Positions 2,853-7,971 of a DNA stretch of 7,979 nucleotides are shown one piece after another. Where the stretch lies: positions 1 to 7,979 of the forward strand of contig JAJYGE010000054.1 of assembly GCA_021785155.1 (NCBI GenBank), written 5' to 3'. Origin of the DNA: Planctomycetota bacterium. Lineage in GTDB: Bacteria; Planctomycetota; Phycisphaerae; WQYP01. The notes under the pieces were generated by a model. That model made no database searches. It was not told where the DNA came from and was given only the letters and a program-made list of their open reading frames with translations. Every line of letters starts with the position of its first letter. The first letter of the stretch is position 1. Made by a program: the position numbers and the translations under genes.

Positions 2853-2891
2853 AAGATCGGACGTTTTGTCCGTAATGAAATGACGATAGTG

Positions 2892-2929
2892 AAAGCCCGG
2901 TCGAGGAAAAATTGACCGGGCTTTTTTTT
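2892..2929 (+). terminator. Strong intrinsic terminator after fusA
   Basis: A perfect 11-bp stem, AAAGCCCGGTC (2892-2902) with GACCGGGCTTT (2914-2924), has an 11-base loop and runs into eight T (2922-2929). It starts 40 bases after the EF-G stop. A smaller hairpin CGGAC/GTCCG (2858-2872) lies between. It separates fusA from the downstream operon. Confidence 0.93.
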
Positions 2930-3109: not shown

Positions 3110-3138
3110 TTGGCAACCTCACGCCAACGTGCGATAAT
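3110..3138 (+). promoter_or_regulatory. Sigma-70-type promoter of the BMC-P operon
   Basis: TTGGCA (3110-3115) and GATAAT (3133-3138) each match the consensus at five of six positions with the ideal 17-base spacer. Transcription would start near 3145, giving a leader of about 30 bases before the first start codon. The promoter lies about 20 bases beyond the 9-bp repeat of the inserted element, so it seems to have been left intact. Confidence 0.7.
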
Positions 3139-3173: not shown

Positions 3174-3473
3174 GTGATTATCGCTAAAGTTATCGGCAAA
3201 GTTGTGGCAACGGTAAAAGATCCCGGTTTTGATGGAAAAAAACTGGTACTGGTGCAGGCGCATGTTCTCAAGGACGGGCAGCTTGTGCCGGGGCAAACCA
3301 TGCTGGTGGCCAATGATGATCTCGGTGCCGGTGAGGGCGAAATGGTGGTGCTCACGCAGGGAAGTTCCGCCCGCATGACCCCCAGTATGAAAAGCACCTC
3401 CACGGATGCTGTGGTAATCGCCCTGATAGATCGTATTGATGCCAATGACCAATTGATCTTCAAACGCAGTTGA
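3174..3473 (+). CDS. BMC-P microcompartment vertex protein, EutN/CcmL family (first of three)
   Basis: A 99-residue single-domain shell protein of the EutN/CcmL (Pfam Pf03319-type) family. Members form pentamers that close the twelve vertices of a protein-shelled bacterial microcompartment. The sequence follows the family layout: IIAKVIGKVVAT (2-13) as the first strands, KLVLVQ (23-28), LVANDDLGAGEGEMVVL (44-60), the characteristic GSSAR turn (63-67) and the closing strand DAVVIALID (78-86). The start is GTG with a GGAG ribosome binding site 6 bases upstream (3164-3167). It is the closest of the three to the standard family pattern and is the promoter-proximal gene of the operon. No BMC-H or BMC-T shell gene or cargo enzyme is in the window, so the compartment type is unknown. 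A PVM-type link is a guess from the likely phylum. Confidence 0.93.
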   Translation: MIIAKVIGKVVATVKDPGFDGKKLVLVQAHVLKDGQLVPGQTMLVANDDLGAGEGEMVVLTQGSSARMTPSMKSTSTDAVVIALIDRIDANDQLIFKRS

Positions 3474-3512
3474 GATAATTTCGGCGCATTGCCGACGCAC
3501 GAGGCTCTTATT

Positions 3513-3791
3513 ATGTTTATTGCCATGGTAAAAGGCACCGTCACCGCAACCAGGAAGCACGCTTCCATGGCCGGTGCACGGCTGGTAATCGTCCAGCCCA
3601 TTGATCCTGTCGGCGGTCAACCCACCGGATTTCCGCAAATTGCCGCCGATGTGCTGGGGGCGGCGGTCGGTACGCGCGTGCTGGTGGTAAGTGATGGCCG
3701 AGGTGTGCAGGATATGCTCAAAGCCGATGCCCATTGCCCGATGCGGCTGGGAATTATGGCGTTAATTGATCCTCCCGCCAGCGGCAGTTGA
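3513..3791 (+). CDS. BMC-P microcompartment vertex protein, EutN/CcmL family (second of three)
   Basis: A 92-residue paralogue of the preceding gene, 39 bases downstream. Visible family features are the N-terminal strands FIAMVKGTVTAT (2-13), RLVIVQPIDPVGGQP (23-37), AADVLGAAVGTRVLVV (44-59) and the final strand GIMALID (80-86). The conserved GSSAR turn is replaced by SDGRG (60-64), and the following loop is different (QDMLKADAHCPMR, 66-78). The ATG at 3513 is preferred because GAGG (3501-3504) lies 8 bases before it; a TTG at 3489 would add eight residues before the family's usual N-terminus. The three paralogues differ strongly, so this is not a recent duplication. It may form its own pentamer or mix with its neighbours. 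Confidence 0.9.
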   Translation: MFIAMVKGTVTATRKHASMAGARLVIVQPIDPVGGQPTGFPQIAADVLGAAVGTRVLVVSDGRGVQDMLKADAHCPMRLGIMALIDPPASGS

Positions 3792-3829
3792 ATGGAGCGG
3801 CGATGGATGGCCGGAGTATGGAATAACGT

Positions 3830-4096
3830 ATGTATTTAGGTAAAATTATTGGTCGAATTGAAGCTCGTGTCCGGCTTCCGGGTATGGAAGTACAGCGGAT
3901 CGTCCTGATCCAGCCGCTGGATTTTAACCAGAAACCTATCCGCTGGACCCTGCTGGCGGTGGATGTAACCGGAGCCTCAGATGGGTCGCTGGTGGCATTT
4001 GAAGAGGGGCGGGAGGCCGCTAATCCGTTTGATCCGCCACTTCCGGTGGATGCCTGTGTTGTGGCGATTGTCGATACGTATCAATATCAGGCCTGA
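3830..4096 (+). CDS. BMC-P microcompartment vertex protein, EutN/CcmL family (third of three)
   Basis: An 88-residue third paralogue, 38 bases after the second and 15 before the next gene. It shows MYLGKIIGRIEARVRLPGM (1-19), RIVLIQPLDFNQKP (23-36), LLAVDVTGASDGSLVAF (41-57) and the closing DACVVAIVD (74-82), all in family positions. The turn is EEGREAANPF (58-67), keeping an Arg where the first paralogue has GSSAR. The C-terminus is slightly extended (TYQYQA). The ribosome binding site is weak: GGAA at 3820-3823, or a GGAG 13 bases away. Three distinct BMC-P proteins are also known within single PVM-type shell loci, where they are thought to occupy different vertices. Whether that holds here cannot be told from sequence. 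Confidence 0.9.
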   Translation: MYLGKIIGRIEARVRLPGMEVQRIVLIQPLDFNQKPIRWTLLAVDVTGASDGSLVAFEEGREAANPFDPPLPVDACVVAIVDTYQYQA

Positions 4097-4111
4097 AACC
4101 TCGGAGTCGCC

Positions 4112-5086
4112 ATGAGGTCCATACTGGCTGTTTTGCAAATTATGCGCGTGGCCCTGGCACTGACCGCCGTGGCGGATGTTTGGACGCTTATGCTCCTGAA
4201 CATTCCCGGCCAGCCCGCGGTTAAAGACCCAATAACCCAATTTGTGCTCGCGGCATTGGCGTCTTTTTTTCTCTATACCTTCGGCATGACGCTCAATGAT
4301 CTTCTGGATTCACGGCGCGATCGTCTGTTTGCTCCGTGGCGACCCATTCCCAGTGGCCGACTTGGCGTACCGGCGGTCATTGTGCTTAGTTTGGTGTTAA
4401 TGCTTTTGGGATTGTTTTCCGCAACTTTGTTGTCCTGGTTTGAACCGATCAACTTTCCCGTCGCCCTGATGTTGGCCATGACGGTCAGCCTCATGATTGT
4501 TTTCTATAACGCCACGGGAAAATTTCTGGGGTATGTCGGCTTTATCGCCCTGGGCCTGATTCGCGGAGTGAATTGTCTTATTGGCCGTCCCAATGCGGAC
4601 TTTTTAATTTTGTCGCTGTTTCTCTTTACCCATATCGCCGTGGCTACCGCCATTTCGTATCGCCTCGAATCCAAACGTCCGCGCCTGCGAATTGCGGGTA
4701 TCTGGAAGCTCCTCGTCGGCGTTGCCTTGATTGATGCGCTGGCGGTATTGATCATGCTTTTACGCGGCAGTATTACGCGCGGCGTACTGATTGACGCATC
4801 CGGACCGGCGGTGGTGGCGTTGATCTATTTTGGCTGGGCGGGGCGGCAATTATTTAATCATCATGAGGCCCCAAGAAAACGCGGTGAACGCATCATGCTC
4901 GTCGGGCTGTTTTCGCTCTTTGCGTATGACGCCGCCCTGCTGGCCGCCAATCAATCATTCCGCGGCATGGCGATAATTCTGATACTGGGAATGGTTTCGT
5001 ATATCCTGTTCTGGGCCATGCGCTTAGCCGGAAAAGGCCTATCAGTGGGGCGGCCACGCTACCGCATCCGGGCCGCGCAGCCATAA
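4112..5086 (+). CDS. UbiA-superfamily prenyltransferase-like integral membrane protein (possibly EboC-like)
   Basis: A 324-residue, very hydrophobic protein with about eight or nine predicted membrane segments (roughly 10-30, 43-60, 87-110, 116-134, 139-157, 163-182, 198-217, 229-242, 262-280, 287-303). The UbiA signature NDxxDxxxD is present as NDLLDSRRD (62-70), followed by the typical RPIPSGRL (77-84). This site binds the Mg-diphosphate of a prenyl donor. The second Asp-rich motif of classical UbiA enzymes is not visible; the equivalent region reads YRLESKRPR (183-191). GFIALGLIRGVNCLIG (143-158) recalls the EboC subgroup of UbiA proteins, whose reaction is unclear. A GGAG 5 bases before the ATG, and only 15 bases after the third vertex gene, make co-transcription very likely. 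Substrate and product cannot be assigned. A membrane enzyme in a shell operon is odd, since shells are cytoplasmic. Confidence 0.8.
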   Translation: MRSILAVLQIMRVALALTAVADVWTLMLLNIPGQPAVKDPITQFVLAALASFFLYTFGMTLNDLLDSRRDRLFAPWRPIPSGRLGVPAVIVLSLVLMLLGLFSATLLSWFEPINFPVALMLAMTVSLMIVFYNATGKFLGYVGFIALGLIRGVNCLIGRPNADFLILSLFLFTHIAVATAISYRLESKRPRLRIAGIWKLLVGVALIDALAVLIMLLRGSITRGVLIDASGPAVVALIYFGWAGRQLFNHHEAPRKRGERIMLVGLFSLFAYDAALLAANQSFRGMAIILILGMVSYILFWAMRLAGKGLSVGRPRYRIRAAQP

Positions 5087-5244
5087 AAAGCGCGTCGGCA
5101 GGACAGCTTTCAGTTGACCAAATCCGCTGCAAGCACCAGCCTGAACCGCCAACCTGATCAAGAAGACAACCGCACGCCCGCCGCAGGAGGATGATCCCTC
5201 GTTTTGGCGGCACGGCAAACTGTGCCAACGGAAGCCACGCGGCC
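5087..5244. other. Short intergenic stretch after the BMC-P operon
   Basis: No gene recognised. The only structure seen is a weak hairpin, GGCAC (5209-5213) with GTGCC (5222-5226). No T-tract terminator follows the prenyltransferase gene. The palindromic element starting at 5245 is the first strong structure downstream and could serve as transcript end for the operon. With that element and 5430-5454, the gene-free gap between the convergent genes is 368 bases. Confidence 0.5.
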
Positions 5245-5429
5245 GGGTGCGTGACACTTTATGCGGGTTACGGACACCGCAATAGTCTCTCCCCCGAGCA
5301 CCGTGGTGATAACCCGGTGCCGTCAGCCTTCGCGCGGACCAGCGGCACCGCATTACCATGACGGTGCTCCGGGGGCGTCGTGTTTGCGGTGAAATAAAAC
5401 AATACCCTCATAAAGTGCCAACGCACCCC
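5245..5429 (-). mobile_element. 185-bp terminal-inverted-repeat element (copy B)
   Basis: It begins GGGTGCGTGACACTTT (5245-5260) and ends in an imperfect inverted version (AAAGTGCCAACGCACCCC, 5412-5429). A second, inner inverted repeat of about 32 bp pairs CCCCGAGCACCGT (5292-5304) outward-in with ACGGTGCTCCGGGG (5361-5374), so the core folds into one long hairpin. Its reverse complement aligns with copy C with roughly 20 differences or gaps in about 186 positions. The flanks CACGCGGCC (5236-5244) and CATGCGGCC (5429-5437) match at 8 of 9 positions and may be a decayed 9-bp target duplication. Placed between convergent genes, it may double as a bidirectional terminator hairpin. No transposase is present. 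Confidence 0.88.
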
Positions 5430-5454: not shown

Positions 5455-7698
5455 TTAACGATACGTCGCATGGTGCGGTGCGCGCGGATCATGGATGACC
5501 ATGCAGGCGTCTTCCACATACCCGTCGTCATGTTCGCCGATGGCCCGAATGTGGTTTTGCCCTTCTTTTAAAATTGTTTCCGACCAGACAAATACACCAT
5601 TGACGCCGTGCCGCAAACCGAGTGATTCGCCATTGAGTTTAAGCTCCACACGCTGGCAATTGGCATAGACCTTGAACACGGCGTGTTTATCCGGACGGCA
5701 GCTAAATCGACGGTCGGTGATATAAACAAACGGTTTTTGGGTCCACTGCGCTTTATAAAAGAAAAACGCATCCTTGCGGATTTTGCGGTCGCGGGTAACC
5801 AATCCCTTGTCATTTTTTGCGGGATGATCGCCCTCATGCCGGAATGCCGAAGCGAAGTCAAACATCACCCAGAGAAACGTACCCCATAGCCAGGGCCGCT
5901 GCTTTATCGCCGCCCAGGCGTGCTCATGCAACAAGGCCTGGTATTCCTCCGGATGCCAATACGCGCCGGGATTGGGTTGGACAACGTGCGTTTCATGTTG
6001 AAAAATGCTGGCTCCCGCACCATATTCACTTAGACCGATGCATCGGCCGGGTGCTTTGGTCTCAACGACTTTTCTCACGTCATCAAGTATTGCCGGAAAA
6101 TCGGTCATCTTGCCGTCGTACCATCCGGGATAACGGTTGAAGGCAATGATGTCCGTGAGGTAGCCGATGGGATTGGATTGGGATTGATCATCCGCGGCGG
6201 TGGTGGGGCGCGTAGGATCCAATCGCTTGGCTTCCGCGTTAAGTTCTGCCACCAGTTTATCGCCCATGAAATGCGGGCCGTTGTTACCCAGTTCGTTGTA
6301 CATGCTCCAGAAGCAGATGGACGGATGGTTGAAATTCTGTTTGATAAGCTCGCGCACCTGTTGCTGCTGATTGTGAGCAAATTGCTCATTATAAGCGACG
6401 CCGTTGACCAGCCCATCTTCAGCCCAAACCACCAGGCCCAGTTTGTCCGCGGCATCATACGATACCTGCGTGTGTTGGTAATGCGCCATGCGCACGCAAT
6501 TGGCACCAATTTCATGGATAATGTCCATATCTTGACGATAATCCGAATCACTCACGGCCCGTCCTTTGTTGGGCCGGTCCTCATGCGTACAGACGCCGCG
6601 GAGCGGATACGACTTGCCGTTGAGAAAAAAGCCGTTGTTGGGATCAAGGTGAAAAAAGCGCAACCCGATCGTCTGTGTCAGATGATCTGTGCGGCGTTTG
6701 TGATCGAAAATGTCCACCGTCACCTGATACAGATACGGGTCTTCCCGTCCATTCCATAAATGCGGATTAGAGAGCACAATATTGTGAACGCATTGCCCCG
6801 TGTCGCCCGCCGCGACAATGCGCGTTGCCGATCCCGTCAATACCACTTTGCCGGTGTGATCTGAAACGCGGTATTCCACATCCGCGGTTTTTGTTCGGCT
6901 TGATGCGTTGCGCAATACCGTGGTGATTTCCAGTTCCGCATGCTCCGGCGTCACCCTGACTTGCTTGACATATACGCCCGGACCTCCGTCGTCCAACGGG
7001 CTGATGGATAATTCATCTAAAATCAACAGTCGCACATGCCGGTATAAGCCGCCATCCATATTGAAATCACCGGACAGCGGAGCGATATGATCGGTGTACG
7101 CATTGTCCACGCGTACCGCGATAATATTCCGGCCATTGCGGTTAATGAAAGGTGTAATATCCACGCAGAATCCGGCGAAAGCGCCAATATGCCAGCCCGC
7201 GGCATGACCATTGCAGAAAATCTCCGAAATTGTACAGGCCGCTTCAAAATACAAAAAGAATTGCTTGCGCCCGTCGGCGGTTGCCGTGGGTGGCAATTCC
7301 AGTTCCTTACGATACCACGCGGGGCCGCGGTAATAAGGAGCGCCGGTTTGACCATCCATGCCGTTGTAAGTGTGCGGCAAATTTACTGTGGTCCATGCGG
7401 AATCATTGACATCAACGGCCTGCGCCCCCGGAAAACCATGCTTGAGGAATTTCCAGGCCTGATCAATGCGGATGTCAACACGGTCATCCGTCACAATGCC
7501 ACGATCTGTTGTTGACCCCATGACGCCTGCCGGATTATTACCTATGTCGCTGCATCCGGCAAACGCGGCGGTCGCCACCATCGCCAAGGTGCCAAATTTA
7601 ATTACATCGCGTCGCGACGCCATGGATGGTTCTTTATAAAGCGGGTGCTGCCGGTCATTGTCGCGGATCGCCGTTTGATTTGTTTTAGATTGTTTCAT
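5455..7698 (-). CDS. Exported glycoside hydrolase family 2, beta-galactosidase-like (Tat/lipoprotein signal)
   Basis: A 747-residue retaining glycosidase that would cleave beta-linked sugars from polysaccharides or oligosaccharides outside the cytoplasm. The N-terminus has a twin-arginine motif SRRDVIKF (28-35), a hydrophobic stretch and a lipobox-like AFAGC (45-49), so Tat export and lipid anchoring at Cys49 are predicted. Then come a sugar-binding jelly-roll domain (about 72-227), an Ig-like sandwich (about 242-345), the TIM barrel (about 352-650) and a C-terminal domain (about 655-735) resembling the DUF4982 type. GH2 landmarks are RGVCTHEDRPNKG (367-379), RMAHYQH (403-409), FNHPSICFWSMYNELG (456-471) with acid/base Glu469, and GLSEYGAGA (555-563) with nucleophile Glu558. 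The ATG at 7698 is chosen for its strong GGAAGG site. An internal ATG at 7623, directly before the Tat motif, is possible. The exact substrate (galactoside, glucuronide or other) is open. The gene stands alone between inverted repeat copies. Confidence 0.93.
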   Translation of the reverse strand: MKQSKTNQTAIRDNDRQHPLYKEPSMASRRDVIKFGTLAMVATAAFAGCSDIGNNPAGVMGSTTDRGIVTDDRVDIRIDQAWKFLKHGFPGAQAVDVNDSAWTTVNLPHTYNGMDGQTGAPYYRGPAWYRKELELPPTATADGRKQFFLYFEAACTISEIFCNGHAAGWHIGAFAGFCVDITPFINRNGRNIIAVRVDNAYTDHIAPLSGDFNMDGGLYRHVRLLILDELSISPLDDGGPGVYVKQVRVTPEHAELEITTVLRNASSRTKTADVEYRVSDHTGKVVLTGSATRIVAAGDTGQCVHNIVLSNPHLWNGREDPYLYQVTVDIFDHKRRTDHLTQTIGLRFFHLDPNNGFFLNGKSYPLRGVCTHEDRPNKGRAVSDSDYRQDMDIIHEIGANCVRMAHYQHTQVSYDAADKLGLVVWAEDGLVNGVAYNEQFAHNQQQQVRELIKQNFNHPSICFWSMYNELGNNGPHFMGDKLVAELNAEAKRLDPTRPTTAADDQSQSNPIGYLTDIIAFNRYPGWYDGKMTDFPAILDDVRKVVETKAPGRCIGLSEYGAGASIFQHETHVVQPNPGAYWHPEEYQALLHEHAWAAIKQRPWLWGTFLWVMFDFASAFRHEGDHPAKNDKGLVTRDRKIRKDAFFFYKAQWTQKPFVYITDRRFSCRPDKHAVFKVYANCQRVELKLNGESLGLRHGVNGVFVWSETILKEGQNHIRAIGEHDDGYVEDACMVIHDPRAPHHATYR

Positions 7699-7709
7699 GA
7701 TATGCACGA

Positions 7710-7715
7710 CCTTCC
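7710..7715 (-). promoter_or_regulatory. Ribosome binding site of the GH2 gene
   Basis: On the minus strand this reads GGAAGG (within GAAAGGAAGG, to 7719), 11 bases before the ATG at 7698. The spacing is a little long but the purine tract is the best nearby. Neither the upstream TTG at 7767 nor the internal ATG at 7623 has a comparable site, so it decides the start. Confidence 0.6.
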
Positions 7716-7732
7716 TTTCGCCAAAGATACAG

Positions 7733-7761
7733 ACGATACAGTGTCGGTATTCTCCTGTCAT
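7733..7761 (-). promoter_or_regulatory. Candidate promoter of the GH2 gene
   Basis: On the minus strand ATGACA (7756-7761) and TATCGT (7733-7738) are 17 bases apart and match consensus at five and four of six positions. Transcription would begin near 7726, giving a leader of about 28 bases. It lies between repeat copy C and the gene, so the gene would keep this promoter if the bracketed unit moved. Confidence 0.35.
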
Positions 7762-7787
7762 CTTCAAAGGTAAAACACAAAATTGTC

Positions 7788-7971
7788 GGGGTGTGTGACA
7801 CTTTACGCGGGTATGATTTTATTGCGCTGCAAACACGATACCCCGGAGCACCGTCATGGTAATGCGGTGCCGCTGGTCCGCGCGGGGGCTGACGGCCACC
7901 GGGTTATCACCACGGCGCTCGGGGGAGAGACTATTGCGCTATCCGTAACCCGCACAAAGTGTCACGCACCC
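7788..7971 (+). mobile_element. 184-bp terminal-inverted-repeat element (copy C)
   Basis: It runs from GGGGTGTGTGACACTTT (7788-7804) to AAAGTGTCACGCACCC (7956-7971), so the ends are near-perfect inverted repeats of about 16 bp. The core (about 7840-7925) is a long imperfect palindrome like that of copy B. It lies about 90 bases upstream of the GH2 start, in the opposite orientation to copy B and the same as copy A. The left flank (AAAATTGTC) and right flank (AGGTAGAA) show no target duplication. A short frame across it shares a peptide with a frame in copy B, explained by the DNA repeat itself. Confidence 0.88.

Follow-up and report, generated by a model that had tools for sequence, protein, structure and literature searches.

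The window, a stretch of 7,979 nucleotides from a Planctomycetota bacterium (contig JAJYGE010000054.1), very probably carries the vertex half of a reciprocally split PVM locus, i.e., the complete BMC-P set of a microcompartment shell, which would act in trans like a satellite and is accompanied by a passenger gene. The evidence established in relatives comprises the orthology and gene order of the vertex genes, their position on contigs separate from the hexamer genes, the co-occurrence of both gene sets, purifying selection and, in the window's clade, a conserved promoter-like site. The comparison sample consisted of 28 genomes of the window's order; the genome of the window itself lies outside this sample and, judging from its relatives, should be split in the same way.

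Three tandem plus-strand genes of the window encode BMC-P vertex proteins: P1 of the Pa type (positions 3174–3473, 99 aa, GTG start), P2 of the Pb type (3513–3791, 92 aa) and P3 of the Pc type (3830–4096, 88 aa), as typed by PF03319 and a protein tree, with Pfam scores of 83.4, 74.0 and 59.0 bits, respectively (cut-off 25). All three have sequence matches to solved BMC-P chains (e.g., 5v74, 6owf and 2hd3), and on this likeness they would form pentamers at the shell vertices, as is the trait of the family. The mechanical list of open reading frames placed the start of P2 at TTG 3489; ATG 3513 was preferred because all other aligned P2 sequences have methionine at the matching position. With this start, the intergenic gaps are 39, 38 and 15 bases, the last of them leading to the gene of a UbiA-family membrane protein (4112–5086, plus strand; PF01040), whose nearest named NCBIfam model is EboC. 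The Pfam matches agree with the four-gene arrangement, coordinates and gaps given in the earlier note. Its emphasis on three divergent BMC-P genes holds for their presence but not for their being unusual in themselves, since many BMC types are described as having a "BMC-P triplet" in the accessible part of PMC8217296.

The borders of the unit were also as previously drawn. The upstream gene encodes EF-G (TIGR00484, 971.6 bits, cut-off 659.4) and has its own terminator between it and the vertex operon (2891–2929, plus strand), a predicted fold followed by a T run with a folding energy of −25.4 kcal/mol (z −6.1). Downstream of the UbiA gene lies a convergent family 2 glycoside hydrolase gene (Pfam; 5458–7767, minus strand), and no terminator was found after UbiA in positions 5080–5130, the sole stretch folded there (z −0.3). 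The promoter-like site of the vertex operon (3110–3138, plus strand; TTGGCA, 17 nt, GATAAT, with TG before the −10 element) was the best of 14 in the window, where 6.9 were expected by chance. The same TTGGCA-17-GATAAT stands at −61 from P1 in 7/7 clade loci including the window, in three different upstream contexts; on sequence grounds, the single promoter proposed earlier for this operon is the likely arrangement. Elsewhere in the window, the glycoside hydrolase gene is enclosed by inverted repeat copies (5245–5420 and 7796–7971, with 90% identity across 177 nt), and one more copy, a partial one, is present at the window start (12–88, 85% over 78 nt); the gene and its flanking repeats are possibly a mobile unit. 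Another element, at 144–417, has 33-nt terminal inverted repeats (94%), and its inside (176–387) is 79% identical to a stretch in a relative (L014:10296-10508).

Within the order, 18 of the 28 genomes had BMC-P genes and 17 had BMC-H genes; 15 had both, three had only P (G018, G021, G040), two had only H (G019, G041) and eight had neither. The two families thus co-occur (p 0.003) although they are unlinked, with P and H never sharing a contig in the 15 genomes that have both. The missing partner in the five remaining genomes is likely due to their incompleteness. A family search over 39 genomes found P in 28 and H in 27. The relatives support the suggestion of the earlier note that the triplet could serve as a satellite to a remote shell locus: P and H are on different contigs in all 15, and the contigs with BMC-H also carry the PVM enzymes. 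No locus was found in the order in which a triplet runs directly into shell and enzyme genes. The order members behind the named loci are all MAGs, and several of their contigs are short: the least possible P–H separation exceeded 20 kb in six of the 15 genomes (G002, G003, G004, G011, G016 and G020; for G004 it was counted with the triplet on contig C199 only, its C88 triplet allowing approximately 7 kb) and was below 6 kb in five (G001, G005, G008, G015 and G017).

Pa, Pb and Pc follow each other in this order on one strand in 18/18 order genomes with P (in G001 across two contigs). The number of shell genes per order genome is three P (six in G004 and four rows in G001, where P2 is cut at a contig end) and three H (two in G041). 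A second shell gene set was absent from the order genomes searched for P and H, and no relatives of P1 were found among viral contigs.

The hexamer genes of the order reside in a main locus which, in G005, reads PTAC, BMC-H, BMC-H, AckA, BMC-H, AldDH, RpiB-like, class II aldolase, LDH and DeoR. It contains the whole PVM enzyme set (AldDH, PTAC, acetate kinase and lactate/malate dehydrogenase) together with DeoR, and its gene content is the PVM set as given in the accessible part of PMC4207490. The class II aldolase (PF00596), the signature enzyme of PVM, scored 166.8 bits in G005 and is absent from the window; the RpiB-like protein has a sub-threshold LacAB_rpiB match. Gene order in the other main loci of the order was as in G005, several being cut by contig ends and that of G017 being without an LDH match. 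No P genes were matched in the main loci (18 stretches from 17 genomes), and some of these run continuously from PTAC to DeoR without P, for example, in G002, G005, G011, G016, G020 and G022. Gene calls made by script were longest-ORF calls, without a trained gene finder. One BMC-H match (L143, G017:C174:6774-7001) has an internal TAG, reflecting either a sequencing error or decay.

Outside the order, 11 genomes have the vertex genes interleaved with the others, in the order PTAC-H-H-AckA-H-Pa-AldDH-Pb-RpiB-Pc-aldolase; some of these loci are cut, some are without an LDH match and that of G031 lies on two contigs. A further phylum member, G182, shows the same interleaving on a contig of 7.4 Mb. 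This arrangement is probably ancestral, given that both G182 and the class sample outside the window's order show it. The vertex genes of the window are one-to-one orthologs, in the same order, of the PVM vertex genes of these 11 genomes. In a tree of 93 P proteins, P1 grouped with Pa with a support of 99/95, P2 with Pb with 99/92 and P3 with Pc with 96/84; the alignment had 101 columns only, and the inner branches were long, with a warning that long branches meet. The partial P2 row of G001, ended by a contig end, was left out of the tree. Comparison of the window with G002, G003, G004b and G005 gave dN/dS ratios of 0.07–0.10 for P1, 0.07–0.15 for P2 and 0.08–0.13 for P3. Overall, purifying selection acts on all three vertex genes and on ubiA (dN/dS 0.07–0.15).

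In a class sample of 120 genomes, P genes scored over the cut-off in 42, of which 10 belong to the order and 32 do not. All 10 order genomes had P and H on different contigs. Outside the order, all 32 genomes with P also carried H. One or more P genes shared a contig with an H gene in 29 of them; the remaining three (G051, G059 and G078) have a shell gene beginning no more than about 220 bases from a contig start. The difference in contig sharing (0/15 in the order vs. 29/32 outside) corresponds to a Fisher p of 1e-9, with related genomes treated as independent, and in four of the 29 (G086, G095, G114 and G135) the counted contig holds some but not all of the P genes. In the phylum sample of 119 genomes, 42 had P matches above the cut-off; the search for H covered 17 of these, picked by eye. 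On the single 6.76 Mb contig of G236, the PVM genes stand at four distant sites (Pa / AldDH-Pb / Pc / DeoR-PTAC-H-H; L177–L180), and G219 has the same four pieces on four contigs (L181–L184). Since these two genomes and G086, G095, G114 and G135 are also partly split, splitting of the PVM locus is not peculiar to the order of the window. The order stands out in having the vertex genes, and no others, grouped together and apart from the rest in 15/15 judgeable genomes. In other Planctomycetota, cassettes of BMC-P genes with a class II aldolase were seen away from the hexamer genes (L185, L187, L189 and L190), either on other contigs or, in G224, approximately 66 kb away; the genomes with these cassettes also have frames with two BMC domains.

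Sequences upstream of the two gene sets were compared for shared elements. GATAAT occurs within 150 nt of P1 in 16/20 triplets (0.64 expected from shuffles, the sequences being related) and also within 150 nt before PTAC in 5/16 main loci. Tandem TTNCANA repeats precede PTAC on the plus strand in 12/16 main loci (0.07 expected from shuffles) and are absent upstream of the P triplets (0/20; 0.01 expected). A first, stricter repeat pattern had matched 1/15 main loci and was dropped as too strict; the looser one, set after viewing the alignment, matched 10/15 when both strands were searched and, with corrected starts, 12/16 on the plus strand, a count that is no independent test because the pattern was derived from these same sequences. 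The four main loci without a plus-strand match are those of G008, G010, G011 and G017, the last with one match on the other strand. It is a guess that the DeoR protein binds at these repeats. None of the 10 interleaved loci searched (nine genomes and G182, two with fewer than 210 searchable bases) carries the repeat before PTAC, so former control of the vertex genes by this element cannot be shown.

The neighborhoods of the triplet vary while the unit itself is kept. Within the clade, blastn similarity (approximately 79%) begins at window position 3128 (G002, G004b and G005) or 3164 (G003 and G004a) and extends to 5078–5098, at the end of UbiA, and the flanks outside the P triplet–ubiA unit are dissimilar. 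G001 has the EF-G gene of the window upstream, but not its downstream gene. Across the order, the typed neighbors of the triplet (with G015, G017 and G040 left out) were EF-G, a Bac_transf sugar transferase (five genomes), a glycosyltransferase (two), SSB (two), FtsX and DUF520, a large protein without a Pfam match and a protein with a sub-threshold PQQ_2 match.

The fourth gene of the unit matched PF01040 with 40.6 bits (cut-off 34.2) and, as its best NCBIfam match, EboC (NF035940) with 88.4 bits, under the cut-off of 250. UbiA prenyltransferases have two Asp-rich motifs. The first, NDxxDxxxD, is invariant in 25/25 aligned proteins of the present family; among the invariant columns of the same alignment there is no second DxxxD and, instead, a Y-x-x-E-x-KRPRL with a nearly invariant E. 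Solved UbiA relatives align over the first part of the protein only. A protein search, in which the best 7999 candidates by shared words were scored, yielded at least 45 relatives including the window's own protein, and a contig scan with the alignment of 25 proteins yielded at least 80 loci. Among these, P genes precede UbiA in six (L001–L006, five genomes; phmmer with the three window P proteins), and none were detected by phmmer near the other 74 listed, within flanks of up to 10 kb, shorter at contig ends, so that a remote P could escape. In G001 the unit extends over two contigs: L176 ends inside P2, L175 continues it and L001 is cut inside P2. G004 has two P triplet–ubiA units (L004 and L005) with different flanks and a single main locus. 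The G004 bin is probably mixed: L005 and G003 have identical P1 and P2 proteins and nearly identical P3 proteins.

The UbiA gene adjoins the triplet only in G001–G005 and the window, with a gap of 15 bases to P3 in the window and in three of the four relatives measured, and 38 in G004b. Conservation of the UbiA neighbor, on which the earlier note had staked its proposal, was thus found throughout the close clade. Since UbiA follows the triplet there against different flanks, the four genes are probably co-transcribed as one operon in this clade. A functional link does not follow. UbiA was found in 25 of the 28 order genomes (once in 24 and twice in G004), including six with neither P nor H (G007, G012, G013, G014, G023 and G024), and is on a contig other than that of the triplet in 13 of the 18 order genomes with P. 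As the gene is widespread in the order, occurs also in BMC-free genomes and adjoins the triplet in no clade but that of the window, the suggested link of a vertex-only module to a membrane or prenyl-lipid function is unsupported.

It is unlikely that UbiA has been recruited to the vertex operon for a real organelle role in this clade only, for example, in membrane placing or lipid modification. Such a role would explain why the unit is kept against at least three upstream and at least four downstream contexts, why UbiA is under purifying selection (dN/dS 0.07–0.10) and why all 18 genomes with P have UbiA, while G041, G042 and G043, in which UbiA was not found, have no P. However, a core gene would be expected to show such selection as well, and the gene is kept in the six BMC-free genomes; elsewhere in the order, its neighbors include an epimerase gene, a PKD-domain gene, dnaA or murJ (ten neighbors typed with Pfam). 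That the triplet is part of another, fragmented type of BMC (FRAG or HO-like) and not of PVM is very unlikely. Tandems of three P genes away from H do occur in other Planctomycetota (G151 and G240), adjoining a class II aldolase, and FRAG BMCs are reported from Planctomycetes in the accessible part of PMC8217296; against this stand the lack of a second shell set in the order genomes searched and the grouping of each P with a canonical PVM P, in a tree without G151 and G240. Still less probable is a stand-alone vertex-only module working with UbiA at the membrane, independently of any shell: the four-gene unit with its differing flanks and the 15-base P3–UbiA gap would suit it, but the distribution of UbiA over the order does not, the vertex genes are orthologous to PVM shell genes and BMC-H is found on other contigs in 15 of the 18 genomes with P. 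Finally, that the separation of P and H is an artifact of fragmented assemblies is scarcely credible, for although the genomes are drafts and the least separation is under 6 kb in 5/15, the main loci run uninterrupted from PTAC to DeoR without P, and triplets on long contigs are bounded on both sides by other genes (G002, G011 and G016).

In the reciprocally split PVM locus, which we prefer, one site would encode the hexamers together with the enzymes and another the full set of three vertex proteins, which would be expressed under a separate promoter and join the hexamers in trans during assembly. The split might have arisen by duplication of the locus followed by complementary loss, or by excision. 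Duplication with complementary loss, or excision of the enzyme genes from a copy, fits because the genes of each half still follow one another as in the interleaved locus; three separate moves ending in the same order are less likely. The split would free the vertex supply from the control of the main locus, and UbiA probably entered the vertex operon through chance linkage. A broader scenario is possible but doubtful: that the shell-closing pieces moved from a sugar-controlled operon to their own promoter throughout the order, that a separate vertex regulon sets the closure or number of the organelles, and that the split has a single origin, in locus duplication with complementary loss, and was kept, with the cassette moving among unrelated neighborhoods.

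According to the accessible part of PMC8857213, the PVM organelle of Planctomycetes handles lactaldehyde from fucose and rhamnose, and by analogy with this literature the organelle of the triplet would be of the same fucose/rhamnose type. BMC-P triplets, satellites, locus fission and FRAG types are already known from what is accessible of PMC8217296, PMC4207490 and PMC5853843; no published account of a PVM locus split into vertex and hexamer genes was found in the literature searched, which was covered in part. The requirement for both shell domains in a locus, as worded in the accessible text of PMC4207490, leaves the order genomes without a main locus, and they could therefore be overlooked or mislabeled. 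Moreover, a natural case of unlinked vertex and facet genes would allow testing whether the vertex supply controls shell closure, size or permeability.

The comparison with known systems follows the accessible portions of the papers cited. The PVM locus (PMC4207490 and PMC8217296; Erbilgin 2014 via citing papers) has the same P, BMC-H and enzyme orthologs in the same relative order. Its trait of BMC-H and BMC-P in one contiguous locus was seen in 0/15 order genomes with both; here, the P genes are outside the locus and the shell set is spread over two sites. Satellite loci (PMC4207490 and PMC8217296) likewise consist of shell genes only, contiguous and remote from the BMC enzymes, and would act in trans. 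The triplet indeed comprises contiguous genes of PF03319 only, the satellite pattern being genes of PF03319 only or PF00936 only. A satellite also presupposes a non-satellite locus with both domains elsewhere in the genome, and no order genome has both on one contig; because no such locus was found, the triplet is no satellite by the strict definition of PMC4207490, but would work like one. The UbiA gene belongs to the same superfamily as EboC (NF035940), with 88 bits vs. the cut-off of 250. The beta-carboxysome satellites ccmK3/K4, ccmP and ccmO (PMC5853843) are also shell genes off the main locus, which is argued to allow separate regulation; in that system the main locus retains the vertex gene, ccmL, and it is facet genes that lie apart, whereas the window's order has the reverse. 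In the HO type I satellite and the FRAG types (PMC8217296), BMC-P genes are likewise away from the main locus. The former has two BMC-P genes and an aldolase, in contrast to three P genes without aldolase in the window, and the latter has a BMC-P triplet mostly remote from known enzymes with no defined locus, while the order described here has a PVM enzyme locus.
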